In this document: positions 1-9,901 of the stretch, one piece after another
Numbering within the stretch: position 1 is the stretch's first letter
Layout of the letters: the number at the start of each line of letters is the position of its first letter
Virus record (IMG/VR): IMGVR_UViG_3300030389_000329
Span: 1-23,885 of that record
Reading direction: 5' to 3' (one strand)
Length of the DNA stretch: 23,885 nucleotides
Source of the DNA: a virus
Translations under genes and position numbers: made by a program
Notes under the pieces: model-generated
What the model saw: the letters and a program-made list of their open reading frames with translations, nothing else
What the model was told of the DNA's origin: nothing
The model's database searches: none

Positions 1-16
1 GATGGGAAGTAGATAA
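1..16 (+). CDS. 3' tail of an upstream virion gene (partial)
   Basis: Only the last codons are in the window, so no function can be given. A frame starting at base 2 ends in TAA at 14-16, and this stop shares its last base with the ATG of the next gene (TAATG). The same stop/start fusion is seen at three other junctions downstream on this strand, which is why this frame is preferred over the alternative that stops at TAG, bases 10-12. Confidence 0.4.
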
Positions 17-1923
17 TGGCAATGTTTACAGGATTTAAACCAAGTGGTATGCAGAAGATAGCCAATAGACTTGGTTATAAAGGTGATATGGTAAACTTTG
101 ATAATTACCTAGAGCAAAACCCTGACAAGAAAAGACAGATGGTTGTCTTTGAAGATGCTGCAAGAAGAATGGCAGAGGGGGGTGTTGCAACTAATAGACA
201 ACAAGCCTACGTTCCAACAATGGGAGAGGGGCAAGGTCAGATACCTGTATTTGGCACAGAGGGTGATCCTAAAGGTATACAAGATGCTACTGCAATAAGA
301 GCACAGACAGGTGCTTTACCTGTAGGTGCAGTCACACAACCTGAATTAACACCCTTTGAACAGTCACAGTTAATTGATCCTAGAACAGGTATGGGTCAGG
401 CTAATGTAATTAGTCAGACTGCTCAAGCAGGTTTACAACAAACAGAAACAACACCAACAGGAACTGCAGCACAAGTCACACCTGTAGTTGCTCAAGAGGC
501 AGTGCAAAATGCAGTATCTAGTAATCAAGCTGCTCAAACAGATTTAAGTGATAATGCTCAAATACTCGCAGCACAAGCAACTGCAAGTAGTGTGGCTAAC
601 TTAGATGCTGCTCAAGGTAATGCAATACTTATGTCAGGTCCTGCTCAACGAGCCATTCGTGAAGGAGAGTTAGTTGATTCAGTTACTAATGCAGAAGTAG
701 CAAAAACATTTACAGAACAAATTGATGCTGCCACTGCTACTGCAAGTGATCAGGCAACTGTAGCAGGACAAATAGCAAGTCTAACTGCTAACTTTGATGC
801 AACTAATCCACCTGCATGGGCATCAGGTGCAATCAGAGGTGTCAATGCAGTTATGCAACAAAGAGGTCTCGGTGCTTCTAGTATTGCAGGACAGGCACTT
901 GTACAGGCTGCTATGGAGTCTGCACTACCTATAGCACAGGCAGATGCAAACACTGTAAGAACATTTGAATTACAAAACTTATCTAATAGACAACAACGTG
1001 CTATGTTAGCTGCTCAACAAAGAGCATCATTCATAGGTCAAGAGTTTGATCAGGCATTTCAAGCTAGAGTTCAGAATGCTGCCAAGATAAGTGACATAGC
1101 TAATAGAAACTTTACTGCAGAACAACAGATACAACTAGAAAATAGTAGAGTAGCTAATACATTAAATCTACAAAACTTGTCAAACAGACAAGCTCTTGTA
1201 CTAGCAGAGGCATCTGCACTTTCAGGTCTAGACACTAGTAACTTAACAAACAGACAACAGGCTGCCGTAGAAAATGCAAAAGCATTCCTACAAGTAGATA
1301 TGGCAAACCTATCTAATGAACAACAGTCAGGTATGTTTAATATGCAACAACTAACACAAAGTATATTAACAGATCAGGCTGCCCTAAATGCTGCCCAACA
1401 GTTTAATGCAACCTCACAAAATCAAGTAGATCAGTTCTTCGCTAACTTGAGGAGTCAAGTAGAACAGTTTAATGCTACACAATCAAACGCACAAGATCAG
1501 TTCAATGCAGGTGAAATGAATACACTTGCAAGATTTAATGCAGAAGTGATGAATGCAAGAGATCAGTTTAATGCACAAAATCAAATAGCTATAGCACAGA
1601 ACAATGCAGTATGGAGAAGAGAGTTAGCCACTGCAGATACTGCTGCTATCAATCGTGCTAACGAACTAAATGCAAAAGCAGTTCTTGACATATCCAATGA
1701 AGCATATGATGACCTATGGGCATTCTATGCAGATACTATGGAGTGGGCATGGAAGAGTGCAGAGAACGAGCAAGACAGAATCAATGCATTAGGTGTGGCT
1801 AACATTAGTAAAGAAGCACAACAATATACTGCAGAGCAAACCAAGAAAGCTGCAGGATCAAGTGCTATCGGTAGTATGCTAGGCACATTAGGTGCTGCAA
1901 TTATTAGAGGACCTTTTGGATAA
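16..1923 (+). CDS. 635-aa repeat-rich coiled-coil virion protein
   Basis: No enzyme motif is visible. Residues 1-60 form a small non-repetitive head, which begins with FTGFKPSGMQ and contains a NFxxYLxxNPDKxxQM stretch. Residues 61-125 are Gly/Pro-rich. From about 130 to 610 the protein is almost purely helical in composition (Ala, Gln, Asn, Thr; very few Pro). Within it NLSN(R/E)QQ-like units recur every 22 residues (321, 387, 409, 431, with degenerate copies at 343 and 365), then FNA units recur every 11 residues. The last 25 residues are small and hydrophobic (GSMLGTLGAAII), resembling the tails of phage internal virion proteins. It is the first complete gene of the late cluster and is fused by TAATG to the next. 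I infer a structural or DNA-ejection protein, T7 gp14/gp15-like in position only; a tail-fibre or needle role is also possible. Confidence 0.7.
   Translation: MAMFTGFKPSGMQKIANRLGYKGDMVNFDNYLEQNPDKKRQMVVFEDAARRMAEGGVATNRQQAYVPTMGEGQGQIPVFGTEGDPKGIQDATAIRAQTGALPVGAVTQPELTPFEQSQLIDPRTGMGQANVISQTAQAGLQQTETTPTGTAAQVTPVVAQEAVQNAVSSNQAAQTDLSDNAQILAAQATASSVANLDAAQGNAILMSGPAQRAIREGELVDSVTNAEVAKTFTEQIDAATATASDQATVAGQIASLTANFDATNPPAWASGAIRGVNAVMQQRGLGASSIAGQALVQAAMESALPIAQADANTVRTFELQNLSNRQQRAMLAAQQRASFIGQEFDQAFQARVQNAAKISDIANRNFTAEQQIQLENSRVANTLNLQNLSNRQALVLAEASALSGLDTSNLTNRQQAAVENAKAFLQVDMANLSNEQQSGMFNMQQLTQSILTDQAALNAAQQFNATSQNQVDQFFANLRSQVEQFNATQSNAQDQFNAGEMNTLARFNAEVMNARDQFNAQNQIAIAQNNAVWRRELATADTAAINRANELNAKAVLDISNEAYDDLWAFYADTMEWAWKSAENEQDRINALGVANISKEAQQYTAEQTKKAAGSSAIGSMLGTLGAAIIRGPFG
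976..1575 (+). repeat. Coding repeat: 22-residue then 11-residue (hendecad) units
   Basis: Inside the 635-aa gene, NLSN(R/E)QQ-like units start exactly at residues 321, 387, 409 and 431; these spacings are 66, 22 and 22. The in-between positions 343 (EFDQAFQ) and 365 (NFTAEQQ) hold degenerate copies, so the true period is 22 residues. A second set, FNA, falls at residues 463, 485, 496, 507 and 518, with a degenerate FFA at 474, giving an 11-residue period. An 11-residue period is the hallmark of hendecad (11/3) coiled coils, which wind more straight or right-handed than heptads. The copies differ in codon use, so this is an old, protein-level repeat and not a recent DNA duplication. Confidence 0.85.
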
Positions 1924-2159
1924 TGATTACAAACCCTTCAGGAAATATTTACAATAAGTTTCTTAATTACAAAAGAATAACTAGAGATTTACAAAATCAA
2001 GCAGAAGTGCCTACGACTAAAGGATTACTATCTAGAAATATGTCTATGAAGAAAAACATGAGTATGCCTAAACAAGATGATCCATTTAATGAAGCTATGG
2101 ATTTTTTTGAGGCTATACAAAATGAAAGATTAAATGGTAAAGAAGAAATAGAAACATGA
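1923..2159 (+). CDS. 78-aa hypothetical protein in virion cluster
   Basis: Not recognised. It is a small, basic N-terminal half (NKFLNYKRITRDLQ) followed by a Met/Lys-rich linker and an acidic amphipathic end (FNEAMDFFEAIQNERL). An internal KGLLSRN (residues 33-39) resembles the G-[LI]-M-x-R tails of three neighbouring proteins. It starts in a TAATG fusion with the 635-aa gene and ends in an ATGA fusion with the next, so it is translated as part of the late block. Its place among structural genes suggests a small virion or assembly protein; this is inference from position only. Confidence 0.65.
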   Translation: MITNPSGNIYNKFLNYKRITRDLQNQAEVPTTKGLLSRNMSMKKNMSMPKQDDPFNEAMDFFEAIQNERLNGKEEIET

Positions 2160-2665
2160 GATATACAAATAGAACAGAACCTATATTAGAAGCACCCATT
2201 CCCGGAATGGCTATGACTCATGAAGTAGGTGCTAGACCTTGGCAAACACCCCCTCAATATCCAACAGTTAGTAAAGCTGCAGAATATTATGTGACAAGTA
2301 TGCAAGATGAATCCTTTGTAGAACAAGCTCTTAACTTAATGGAAACAGGTATGCCTATTACATTAATAGCTAACAATATACACTTGATGAGTGTCATGGA
2401 AGGTAAACATACTATTGATGTAGGAATGTTATTGATACCTGTAATTATGGAAATGCTTATGTTAATAGGGGACAAAGCAGGTGTAGAATATACCACAGGT
2501 ATGGAGAGAGATAAAGATATTGAAATAAGAGACTCTGCATCTGAAGCAGCATTCGCTAAGTTTCAAAAACAATTAGGTGAAGATAGCACTGAAGAAGTTG
2601 CAGAGGAACAAGAGGAAGACACAAAAGAAGAGCAACCTATGGGTTTGATGGCTAGGAGAGGTTAA
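2156..2665 (+). CDS. 169-aa hypothetical virion-cluster protein, acidic C-terminus
   Basis: Not recognised. The N-terminal 60 residues are polar. The middle (about 70-115) is strongly hydrophobic and Met-rich, with one segment around IPVIMEMLMLIGDKAG that could be a membrane or buried helix. The end is a Glu-rich tail (about 140-160) followed by the terminal PMGLMARRG. The start overlaps the preceding stop as ATGA and its own stop fuses to the next gene as TAATG. The Glu-rich tail recalls scaffolding or chaperone-like small phage proteins, but there is no specific match. The last residues share a G-L-M-x-R pattern with the 714-aa protein and a variant with the 1167-aa protein. Confidence 0.7.
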   Translation: MRYTNRTEPILEAPIPGMAMTHEVGARPWQTPPQYPTVSKAAEYYVTSMQDESFVEQALNLMETGMPITLIANNIHLMSVMEGKHTIDVGMLLIPVIMEMLMLIGDKAGVEYTTGMERDKDIEIRDSASEAAFAKFQKQLGEDSTEEVAEEQEEDTKEEQPMGLMARRG

Positions 2666-7200: not shown

Positions 7201-7757
7201 ATGATTTTTATAGAAAGAGTCCTAATGCTTTCATAGACAGAAAACTTAGAGAGGTATTGAGTGGTGAAGAGTCTGTTAAAAATTTAAATGAGGTGTTAGA
7301 ACAAGTTATATTAAGAGATGAATTATATTTAAATTTAAAATCAAAAGCACAAAAAAGAAATTATTTAGTCACTGCACTTAGGGAAAGGGTTATGCCTAAA
7401 GCTAGGGATAAAGCATTGAAACTAGTAGAGTTAGAACGAGAAAGATTAAGCTCAAGTGAAGAGGATTCACTACCTTATAGTTTAGTTCAGTTAAATGAAT
7501 ATAGAAGTATACCATCTCCTGAAAAAGATTCAATAAATGCAGAGTTTAGAAATGGTTTACGAGATGGTTTGTTTGAGATAGAAGGATTTGAAAACCTAAC
7601 AGAAAAAGAAATAGAAGAATTAAATATAGAAAATTCTAGAGATTTAACTATAATACTTAAAGGAGTAAGAACTTCTGAAAATGTTTTACGATGGGCAATA
7701 AGTAGAAAAGGTGTTGCCAAAGGTAGAATGAAAAGAGGAATAATGGGTAGAAAATAA
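4254..7757 (+). CDS. 1167-aa putative internal virion / DNA-ejection protein
   Basis: The largest gene here. Residues 1-110 are charged. About 113-220 is Gly/Ala-rich and hydrophobic (GGIFTAPSTYLGILTGGAG, then ISAGGGAILNAGAGA), the composition seen in phage proteins that insert in membranes during DNA entry. The rest is a long helical body with landmarks at about 452 (MTSQPATTMRN) and 642 (PFPRFIANQMKFLYEH), both of which look like the large helical virion polyproteins common in marine phages. The C-terminus is RGIMGRK, part of a tail shared with neighbours. An in-frame TAA at 4245-4247 means the start cannot lie upstream of ATG 4254; the ribosome site is weak (AGGA, 11 bases upstream). I infer a T7 gp15/gp16-type ejection role from size, position and composition. 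No transglycosylase motif is visible, so this is not proven. Confidence 0.7.
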   Translation: MQYFKEYNNFSPEDQNKQTLTQNQDFINDAYYFLVDREGYKQSDLNTPEKVYDQFLEHFRYQNVNEVTAIRDLEYAQNASISEKENFARLIALYDNMEGDSFNVETAKDYAGGIFTAPSTYLGILTGGAGKLASVGGNQLTKLGIRKLLTKEIAKSAAKGAVVEGSIGAVQAGAQEGTKVEVGLQDEVDTSKVIGTALISAGGGAILNAGAGAYQTMKAIKADEFLTASEVATKKLADDASKKSKAFLKGVREGEDTQFLNKILEELSPETYKMTSDGLKRIAKKQPIAKKPLDAEKVSVGRDLAKEKGLDKLPIEFFENLSAAVLKVKNKIKIGKDQRVTSAIADAIGDEKISFKELSDILREHNLSYDQFSLVYLADISDAGRTLGYHGFLKNQLNPSTSQKTVAKLLTDIQDLERRGLTRIDKTKALEVLKNKKDKGVLRDLDRLRLALMTSQPATTMRNNANALFRVVVDAGTRTFYNVLKGRISNPFDGTFDIAKYMLNPYEAQAVRNIFQNTMPDSATVLFREAADLTSQTGGGALAKIGTKANFLNTMSDNFFKQAVFTASLRRRLADDGQDLVNIIKNGKFNTINKDIIEGSMQDALEFVYQKSFKGDGWFSKVAKGTIDAHRNVPFVISSFIPFPRFIANQMKFLYEHTPLLGLMNLEGLGTKQGYIQSLKNISKDEYRQKFAKQLTGLMMFSVAYNWRKENMDDDGKLGTYWYEFKDDTGKVVDGRPTYGPFAPYLLAADIALRYQLSDERGKKVKLNETNFYSPVTGLWEDLYDRWGADGKRMTEVMNSPRQYMQDALQSLFGSSFRTGYGYWVIDKLFDDVAAGGEGVIDKAAAEFGANLINTYTMPMAVLKDVYSQFDKFARYIPETRQGDPKGDISFYKILFDRGTRAFPDIGANTIVGRYYNARRGAKDIAEKIGFDTVSYDTPYRNPLRTGDQIAFNPLEKQMFGLGKMPRKNVLEREMADLNLQYYDFYRKSPNAFIDRKLREVLSGEESVKNLNEVLEQVILRDELYLNLKSKAQKRNYLVTALRERVMPKARDKALKLVELERERLSSSEEDSLPYSLVQLNEYRSIPSPEKDSINAEFRNGLRDGLFEIEGFENLTEKEIEELNIENSRDLTIILKGVRTSENVLRWAISRKGVAKGRMKRGIMGRK

Positions 7758-9901
7758 TGGCTATAAAAGGATTTGAACTAGGACTTGAAACTGATAGAAT
7801 GTTTGCAGATGCAGAACGTAAACGAGAAGAACGTGAAGCAGGAATGACAGATATACAAAGACAGGCTCAAGGTGTAGAACCTATAACCATAAAAGATGTA
7901 AGAGACTTTGCTTTAGCAACTGCACCTTTGACAGGTGATGTGATTGCATTTAAAGATGCACCTGAAGACTATACACGTGCCTATGAACTACTACAGGCAG
8001 GTTATGGTGAACGAGACTTAATTAAGATGGGTCTTGGTGGTGCATTCACAGGGTTAATAACAATGGGGTTGATTCCCGGATTAGGTTTTGTATCTAGAAT
8101 GGGTAAGAATATGCTACGTCAAATGGCTATAGATGCATTTAAAAGAGGTGACAGGAAGACAGGTACTGATATACTTGTAAATACAAGTGATTATGTAAAA
8201 AAAGAATTAGGTGATAAGTTTAACAAGAACATATCAACAAAACGACAGAGCCAAATAAAAGAAATAAAGAATAAGTTTAAAAAGAAAGAGCATAAAAAAC
8301 GTATTAAGATGCTTGATAAACCTAGGAAAGAGATATTATATCATGGCACTGCTATGGGTCAGTTTAGTGCATCACCAAAACTAGGTACATATATAGACAA
8401 AGACTTCCAAGCAAATGAATTAGCCACTACATTTAGAGATAACTCAAAGATATTTACAGAGATAGTAGATGCTAACAATGGTAATCCCATCATAGATATA
8501 GCTACTTATGGTATGAAAGTAGGTAGAGATGTAGATGAGATAGATAAGTATGCAGGAGCTAAAATAAAGTTTCCTATATTAGCAAGTGCAAGTAAAGATT
8601 CTAATATATCCCCTACTCCTAAAGTTTTTAATGATACAATATCGTTAGAAACTAATGCAGAGGCAGGTGAAGTATATTTAAAAGGAACACCATCTGCTAT
8701 TAATAATTATGAAGGTGAAACATTTGGTGTGGTAAAGTTACTTGATAATAATAAGGTAGATCTTAGAGATATAGAAGCAGAGCTAACAAAGAGAAATAGA
8801 CAAGATATAAAAGAGGTAGTAGAACTTGATAAAACATTTATAGATAACATAGTAAGACGTGGATTTGATAGATATGAAGATAGCACAGGAAAATCAACAG
8901 GTAAAACATACATAGGTTTAGCAACTAGAAAAGTACCTATTCATTCAGAATTAGGAACACCTGCATTATCAACATCACTTGACCCTATTACATCTGTTAA
9001 ACCTGCTTTTACTACTCCCGGAGTAGAGGTGGGTGACATGGGAATGGGAACAGATGAAATGGGTAGAACTGTAGAAAATTTATTATTCACAGAGTTACCT
9101 TATGGTAAATTTAAAAGTATGACACCTGACGATTATAACAAAATTGTTAACTTATACTCACGTGATGGAGATCTTAGAGAGGGGTTATTTAATAAGTATA
9201 AAGATGTTATGACAGATGACACTTTAGGTATAAAGTTACCTAAGTCTGCACATACAGAAGCAGAGGTGGCATTTACTAGACCTGATTTTCTTACACCAAA
9301 AAAAGTAGTAGATAATCCAAAGATGTTATCTATGGTTGAAAAAGCAAACGAGGCATTTGATAAATATAAAAAACTAGAAGTATCTATAGGTGACGTTGAT
9401 AACAGAGCATTAATAGGAGATCCTGTGAATCAAAAGAAAGCCTATGATTTAGTTAAAGATTATTTTAATAGTGCTCTTGATCTAGCTAAGTTTACAAGAA
9501 CTGAAGGAGCTAGAGGTGCATATGATGAAATAATAGATGAGTTAACTGTATCCCCAAATCTAAGTAGACTTACTGAAAATTTAAGTATTGTATTACCAAA
9601 AGGGGAGAAAAAAAATAATATGAAAATATTAAATAGTTTGTTAGATAGACCGACTAGAGGTATTATGCAAACTGCTCCAAAAAGAATACAGGGATATCAA
9701 GGCAGAGAAGCACCTAAAGATTTTAGTCCTAAGAAGTTTATTAATGAGTTGCAATCTACACTACTTGAAACAAAAGGTAACATATTAGATTATAAACTTA
9801 AAACAGAAGAAAAAATATTATCTTTATCACCACGACAATACAAAGAAGCTATCATGGAAATAACACCTAAGTTAAATCGTGGTGGATTGATGACTAGGTA
9901 A
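7757..9901 (+). CDS. 714-aa virion-cluster protein with ADP-ribosyltransferase-like motifs
   Basis: The last gene of the late block, fused by TAATG to the 1167-aa gene. Residues 1-45 are charged. Residues 50-115 hold hydrophobic, Gly-rich helices (FALATAPLTGDVI; GGAFTGLITMGLIPGLGFV) suited to membrane insertion. Residues 150-190 are a strongly basic linker. Then come three motifs in the order seen in ADP-ribosyltransferases: LYHGT (194-198), STSLDP (405-410) and an ExE, E501-A-E503, in an EAEVAFTRP context. The gaps between them are longer than in typical enzymes. The C-terminus is RGGLMTR. The combination of an N-terminal membrane segment and a possible toxin-like enzyme suggests a protein packaged in the virion and delivered with the DNA, as T4 Alt is. 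The enzymatic reading is a hypothesis; a purely structural role is the alternative. Confidence 0.65.
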   Translation: MAIKGFELGLETDRMFADAERKREEREAGMTDIQRQAQGVEPITIKDVRDFALATAPLTGDVIAFKDAPEDYTRAYELLQAGYGERDLIKMGLGGAFTGLITMGLIPGLGFVSRMGKNMLRQMAIDAFKRGDRKTGTDILVNTSDYVKKELGDKFNKNISTKRQSQIKEIKNKFKKKEHKKRIKMLDKPRKEILYHGTAMGQFSASPKLGTYIDKDFQANELATTFRDNSKIFTEIVDANNGNPIIDIATYGMKVGRDVDEIDKYAGAKIKFPILASASKDSNISPTPKVFNDTISLETNAEAGEVYLKGTPSAINNYEGETFGVVKLLDNNKVDLRDIEAELTKRNRQDIKEVVELDKTFIDNIVRRGFDRYEDSTGKSTGKTYIGLATRKVPIHSELGTPALSTSLDPITSVKPAFTTPGVEVGDMGMGTDEMGRTVENLLFTELPYGKFKSMTPDDYNKIVNLYSRDGDLREGLFNKYKDVMTDDTLGIKLPKSAHTEAEVAFTRPDFLTPKKVVDNPKMLSMVEKANEAFDKYKKLEVSIGDVDNRALIGDPVNQKKAYDLVKDYFNSALDLAKFTRTEGARGAYDEIIDELTVSPNLSRLTENLSIVLPKGEKKNNMKILNSLLDRPTRGIMQTAPKRIQGYQGREAPKDFSPKKFINELQSTLLETKGNILDYKLKTEEKILSLSPRQYKEAIMEITPKLNRGGLMTR

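Follow-up and report, generated by a model that had tools for sequence, protein, structure and literature searches.

An eleven-residue asparagine repeat that changes length by whole units in a protein of HMO-2011-type and related podoviruses

The IMG/VR virus record IMGVR_UViG_3300030389_000329 (from a marine virus of bacteria; 23,885 nucleotides, analysed over its whole length and referred to here as the window) encodes near its start a protein with a repeat of exact 11-residue period. Asn recurs in one register of this repeat, relatives of the protein differ in the length of the repeat region by whole hendecads, and the gene stands among conserved neighbours. A sequence-only reading had pointed to the repeat in nucleotides 976-1575; the repeat is confirmed and is larger than first reported. 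Tentatively, we read the protein as a late component of the virion of an HMO-2011-type podovirus, one that is probably ejected and whose hendecad rods are packed as a bundle or tube.

The eleven-residue register

The NLSN-type units begin at residues 321, 387, 409 and 431 and the FNA-type units at 463, 485, 496, 507 and 518, just as the sequence-only reading had placed them, and the spacings within each kind are all multiples of 11. The motif NLSN(R/E)QQ that it gave for the first kind is exact at 321 and 431; the unit at 387 reads NLSNRQA and that at 409 NLTNRQQ. The Asn/Gln homopolymers that it described in the core do not exist, since the longest runs of Asn or Gln within residues 310-560 comprise three residues and the longest run of Asn two. 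Both unit types follow one 11-residue register (321 plus 143 gives 464, the Asn of the first FNA unit). With the protein set out in lines of 11 residues, the Asn of FNA falls beneath the first Asn of NLSN, and their common column is mostly Asn across 321-552. Asn occupies 16 of the 23 register positions in residues 310-560, a zone with 34 Asn, and none of 100,000 composition-preserving shuffles reached 16 in register with the best phase allowed. Eleven is the strongest Asn period among 3-40 in the window protein (z 10.4). Tandem Repeats Finder found no array in nucleotides 800-1923, and the repeat is not a DNA tandem repeat.

The period-11 score was compared across 408 predicted genes of suitable length, drawn from 81 contigs. 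For the 74 family members that their anchors identify (see below) it is at least 4.9, with a median of 6.0. Six of the 12 best-scoring other genes are rod genes without an anchor; the first two places go to an unrelated protein with a 22-residue repeat. This different protein, with the repeat DS(V/I)TLTGVNAT..., is encoded upstream of the rod gene in L054 and L056 (gene from 872, 583 aa).

Table 1. Features of the window on the rod gene and the genes that follow it
Feature	Position	Strand	Basis or remark
CDS, hendecad-rod protein, 635 aa	16-1923	+	open frame; full-length IMG/VR relatives; relatives in 27 phage records
N-terminal part, residues 1-303	16-924	+	AlphaFold2 helices 9-18, 25-34, 36-53; conservation
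Rod, residues 304-567, LPIA to W-x4-D-x3-W anchors, exactly 24 hendecads	925-1716	+	anchor-to-anchor length
NLSN-type units, residues 321-437	976-1326	+	sequence
FNA-type units, residues 463-520, register shared with NLSN units	1402-1575	+	sequence
Gly-rich hydrophobic C-terminal segment, residues 612-635	1849-1920	+	most hydrophobic 19-mer of the rod protein
Small ORF between rod gene and next module gene, 78 aa	1923-2159	+	small genes here in most annotated relatives
Conserved module protein, 169 aa, C-terminus GLMARRG	2156-2665	+	25 phage records; 78 members in 81 contigs
Module protein, 523 aa	2665-4236	+	position conserved
Module protein, largest partner, 1167 aa	4254-7757	+	residues 13-193 match LUZ100 protein
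Last large gene on the + strand, 714 aa, C-terminus NRGGLMTR	7757-9901	+	open frame; cluster of 9 members, 81 contigs

The rod zone is polar, with 30% Asn/Gln. It is preceded by an N-terminal part that comprises a helical segment at residues 9-53, ending in an A..MA.GG motif, and a variable Ala/Gln/Thr-rich stretch. No Pfam domain above its cut-off was found in the window rod protein; LRR_EndoS (E 0.021, below its cut-off) and phrog_27302 (E 0.046) were rejected as chance matches, and a PDB profile search gave matches only at E >8. A conserved C-terminal membrane segment was considered for the family and rejected, as the tail segment holds the most hydrophobic 19-mer in only 46 of 83 relatives. 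The ends of the protein vary in other ways. A different C-terminal extension around FCWVAREVYG is found in 14 of 69 anchored close homologues, including that of HMO-2011 (L081, L020, L027, L041 and others), and has no significant Pfam or NCBIfam match in the members scanned. The CRP-1 rod gene (L082:8657-11941) has a longer fused N-terminal part, giving 1094 residues in total. The rod protein of CRP-235 (L095:2017-4551) carries a LysM domain at residues 71-110, a sign of putative peptidoglycan contact.

Relatives and rod length

A tblastn search of 50,697 phage records finds relatives of the rod protein in 27, namely HMO-2011 (twice), Roseobacter CRP phages, Pelagibacter HTVC phages, Vibrio CHOED (twice), Aeromonas MQM1 and 1233, Pseudoalteromonas Slicky01, Rhizobium and Sinorhizobium phages and one uncultured podovirus. 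Two distant members used as queries recover 27 records each, from the same phage groups; the CHOED rod protein as query recovers CHOED itself alone. A search of IMG/VR yields 576 relatives, of which 80 were kept, in addition to 36 distinct loci of a second subfamily, and a search of genome contigs gives two loci. In nearly all phage records the homologues are labelled 'hypothetical protein'.

The 11-residue spacing described for the window protein is kept by its homologues. The net length change in residues 300-600 is zero in 81 of 84; the three exceptions are two distant homologues with changes of -77 and -44, both multiples of 11, and a close one with -1 at its cut-off end. Asn is invariant at 13 register positions in all 83 aligned rows (a count that leaves out L083 and L084), and 11 is the top Asn period in each of 16 named members. 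Rod length can be measured between an upstream anchor, [LIMV]PIA, and a downstream one, W-x4-D-x3-W or its variant. Six lengths are found between them, 187, 198, 209, 220, 264 and 352 residues, and in all 90 distinct segments the length is a multiple of 11. In the same proteins the lengths of the N-terminal part and of the C-terminal tail take all values modulo 11, the N-terminal control being approximate for the second subfamily, whose rows begin at the match and not at the start codon. Measured to a second downstream anchor, all 99 distinct segments (116 loci) are 6 modulo 11. Both counts, of 90 and 99, cover loci with both anchors.

The rod comprises 17 hendecads in phiM6 and RHph_N3_19, 18 in HTVC033P, CRP-3, CRP-738, CRP-235 and CRP-212, 19 in CHOED, 20 in Slicky01 and MQM1, 24 in the window, HMO-2011 and CRP-1, 32 in HTVC115P and HTVC104P and 34 in ctYwJ313. 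Three of these 16 named members have hand-set or variant anchors: CRP-235 and CRP-212 have variant upstream anchors, and for ctYwJ313 the anchor was placed manually, starting from the second Trp; its automatic anchors had given 376 and 645, which are not multiples of 11. L086 and L052 are without an anchor in this count. At 0.15 nm per residue and with a straight helix assumed, rod length ranges from 28 to 56 nm across members. The number of units does not track host genus, and the idea that the rod is a ruler for the host periplasm is not supported because Pelagibacter phages have 18 or 32 units. The rule of whole hendecads should stand regardless of function.

The conserved gene block

In HMO-2011-type and related podoviruses the rod gene is the first of a conserved block of genes with which the late region ends. 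In annotated relatives the block runs from the rod gene through small or extra genes and a gene of about 160-200 residues to two large genes; HTVC104P and HTVC115P have more intervening genes after the rod gene. In HTVC115P the gene directly after it (L089:10741-11190) is annotated as a toxin-activating lysine-acyltransferase.

The 25 phage records that match the 169-residue protein belong to the same groups as those found with the rod protein, and for the 523-residue protein no family match above cut-off was found. Residues 13-193 of the 1167-residue protein match a protein of Pseudomonas phage LUZ100 (tblastn E 2e-9, 30% identity) that is annotated as putative internal virion protein D, similar to T7 gp16. 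This gp16-like match points to an ejection block. A direct match between the family profile of the 1167-residue protein and T7 gp16 was not found, nor was homology of the module partners to T7 and P22 proteins.

Non-homologous proteins of the block have in common a C-terminal motif like [KRG]G[LIM]M.R, as in GLMARRG, RGIMGRK and NRGGLMTR. It is carried by the 169-, 1167- and 714-residue proteins of the window and by relatives. The motif occurs within the last 18 residues of 53 of 1009 predicted genes and only three times internally in 308,832 residues; GLMARRG of the window is a near match that the pattern does not count. It is possibly a shared packaging or docking tag. The 714-residue protein, for which no Pfam match was found, also contains LYHGT at residue 194 (window:8336-8350), which we take to resemble an ADP-ribosyltransferase motif.

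Predicted fold, possible roles and known systems

The helix of the rod is predicted. For the window protein AlphaFold2 (52 aligned sequences) places helices at 290-400 and 412-612, with a mean pLDDT of 58 and a pTM of 0.30. The pLDDT is about 70-78 in 470-570 and below 50 at 335-373 and 387-412; the FNA half is thereby predicted helical with moderate confidence and the NLSN half poorly. In the second subfamily helices are predicted through 264-684 with breaks (mean pLDDT 51), at about 64-85 from residue 500 on and below 50 in most of 286-464. Foldseek found no PDB match below E 6 for the predicted structure. The long coiled coil that the period had suggested survives in part: the prediction is a long helix of low to moderate confidence and is not globular, but the hydrophobic stripe of 3.67 residues that should accompany it is essentially absent. 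Fourier analysis gives hydrophobicity a power of 0.6 at 3.67 residues versus 17.4 at 2.75, the main component and another harmonic of 11. The rod is therefore not an ordinary one-stripe coiled coil.

A pooled hendecad wheel has nonpolar columns on several sides, charge on columns 5 and 9 and amides on columns 1, 3, 4, 6 and 7, a pattern that would fit a helix flanked by others on more than one side. In column permutations (a set without RHph_N3_19, CRP-3, CRP-212 and phiM6, in which the automatic zone finder gave only 2-3 units) two hydropathy seams, which a tube should show, are not significant (p 0.26-0.29), and the corresponding charge test gives p 0.04-0.06. The two-seam harmonic test is not counted as evidence: it falls short of significance, and the P22 gp26 control is also strong in the second harmonic. 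A conserved face is not significant across residues 321-551, and only 442-551 reaches p 0.018 at residue level.

A bundle or tube could account for these properties as follows. Residues 304-567 would form an alpha-helical rod of 24 hendecads, about 40 nm long if straight at 0.15 nm per residue, with Asn recurring at the same register position in most hendecads. Rod copies would pack side by side and in register, and we propose that such packing lets only whole hendecads be gained or lost in evolution. The protein would most likely be one of the internal proteins that exit the head before the DNA and contribute to a conduit across the envelope, its Asn/Gln-rich helices forming a bundle or tube that works like the DNA-pilot tube of phiX174 H. 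We infer the location in the virion, the ejection, the oligomer, its lumen and its contact with DNA. The sequence-only reading had also suggested that polar layers in the core may allow unfolding for passage through a tail; for the ejectosomes of T7 and PhiM1 it has been put forward that being alpha-helical may make it easier for the proteins to unfold in part (PMC11440229).

The main rival to a bundle or tube is a trimeric alpha-helical tail fibre or needle shaft outside the virion, in which Asn would form the polar layers of a three-stranded coiled coil. S74 is a folding chaperone of trimeric tail fibres. Pfam Peptidase_S74 is found at the C-terminus of four of ten scanned members (CRP-3, CRP-235, CRP-738 and CRP-212), its relatives occur in tail-fibre genes, and genes annotated as tail fibres lie upstream of the rod gene. 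A fibre has to be kept in view because of S74, although we regard it as rather unlikely. It is expected to have a single core stripe, whereas the 11/3 hydrophobic harmonic of the rod is below that of 97% of column permutations (p 0.97-0.98). The window protein has no C-terminal S74 and no Pfam domain above cut-off, its gene heads a block holding a gp16-like protein, and S74 is also found on gp7-type ejection proteins.

This last point comes from Pseudoalteromonas H6/1 gp17 and Pseudomonas AH02 gp11, in which S74 is fused to proteins matching phrog_598, the family of P22 gp7. The members from CRP-235 and CRP-738 match phrog_4287, named DNA ejection protein, across the S74 region, and gp20 of Salmonella phage 7-11 matches phrog_4287 along its length. 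The latter is annotated as similar to phiEco32, to which phage 7-11 is presumably akin. With E values as high as 10 allowed, and within the limits of HMMER's filters, no phrog_598 match was found for the window and CRP-3 proteins.

It is also conceivable, though doubtful, that the rod is part of an internal core or scaffold that positions other internal proteins or DNA in the head and forms no conduit, its unit number setting the length. Those podovirus core proteins that have been studied leave the capsid as well (PMC11784390, PMC4992974), which argues against such a role. In its favour are the internal-virion-like partner in the gene block and a length that is quantised in hendecads and not tied to the host. 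Apolipoproteins and LEA proteins have amphipathic 11-mer repeats, and the period of 11 or 22 residues would fit a lipid- or membrane-associated repeat of this kind; it is improbable here, as the zone is polar through its amides and has no one-sided amphipathic stripe. A low-complexity Asn/Gln-rich stretch with a chance or recently duplicated period would agree with the Asn/Gln/Ala-rich composition and deserves practically no credence, being refuted by a register that divergent relatives keep at 25-60% identity; the shuffles and the lack of a DNA tandem repeat also speak against it.

HMO-2011-type phages are described as dominant and widespread in the ocean (PMC9038755), and the literature examined gave no description of the way in which they get across the cell envelope. 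By word search, coiled and ejection do not occur in PMC9038755, nor does ejection in PMC6918029. The main text of a review on ejection proteins (PMC8954989) mentions none of coiled, hendecad, HMO-2011 and X174, and among the papers searched, mostly non-subscription ones, no title describing such an 11-residue Asn rod in phages was found. Hendecads can be counted in any rod sequence; their number is not the same in phages whose hosts are related, and cryo-tomograms would allow it to be set against the length of a conduit.

The rod protein with its proposed bundle or tube has several possible counterparts. In T7 the genes of gp14, gp15 and gp16 likewise form a block late among the structural genes, but the rod protein has no sequence match to these proteins, reversed controls scoring alike, and none to the family profile of gp14 (phrog_805). 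The gp7-type S74 ejection proteins and phrog_4287 precede other ejection genes, as the rod gene may do, and share a C-terminal S74 with some rod members; outside S74 no similarity is detectable, and they have no comparable hendecad register. Homology of the rod protein to P22 gp7 and to S74-trimmed ejection proteins was not found, with reversed controls again scoring alike, nor was homology to P22 gp20 and gp26.

The phiX174 H tube is described in PMC7354561 as an alpha-helical decamer of hendecads and heptads lined mostly by Asn, Gln and Arg, with three hendecads followed by heptads. H (PDB 4JPP, 4JPN) and the predicted rod are both long, alpha-helical and Asn/Gln-rich with hendecads, and the pilot role is a proposed analogy; hhalign gives a probability of homology of at most 1.3%, against 0.2% for the reversed control. 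H belongs to a microvirus and has three hendecads before its heptads, whereas the rod, known here from sequence, belongs to tailed dsDNA phages, has 17-34 and is longer. It is a speculative and on balance unlikely extension that tailed podoviruses, including the HMO-2011 type, independently evolved an H-like, Asn-ringed, DNA-conducting alpha-helical tube of digital length, with 17 to 34 hendecads of about 1.65 nm each. If this were true, polar helical DNA conduits would have arisen more than once. HMO-2011 phage1322_25 and the homologues in CRP, HTVC, CHOED, phiM6, MQM1 and Slicky01 belong to the same family as the window protein, and their rods differ in length by whole hendecads.
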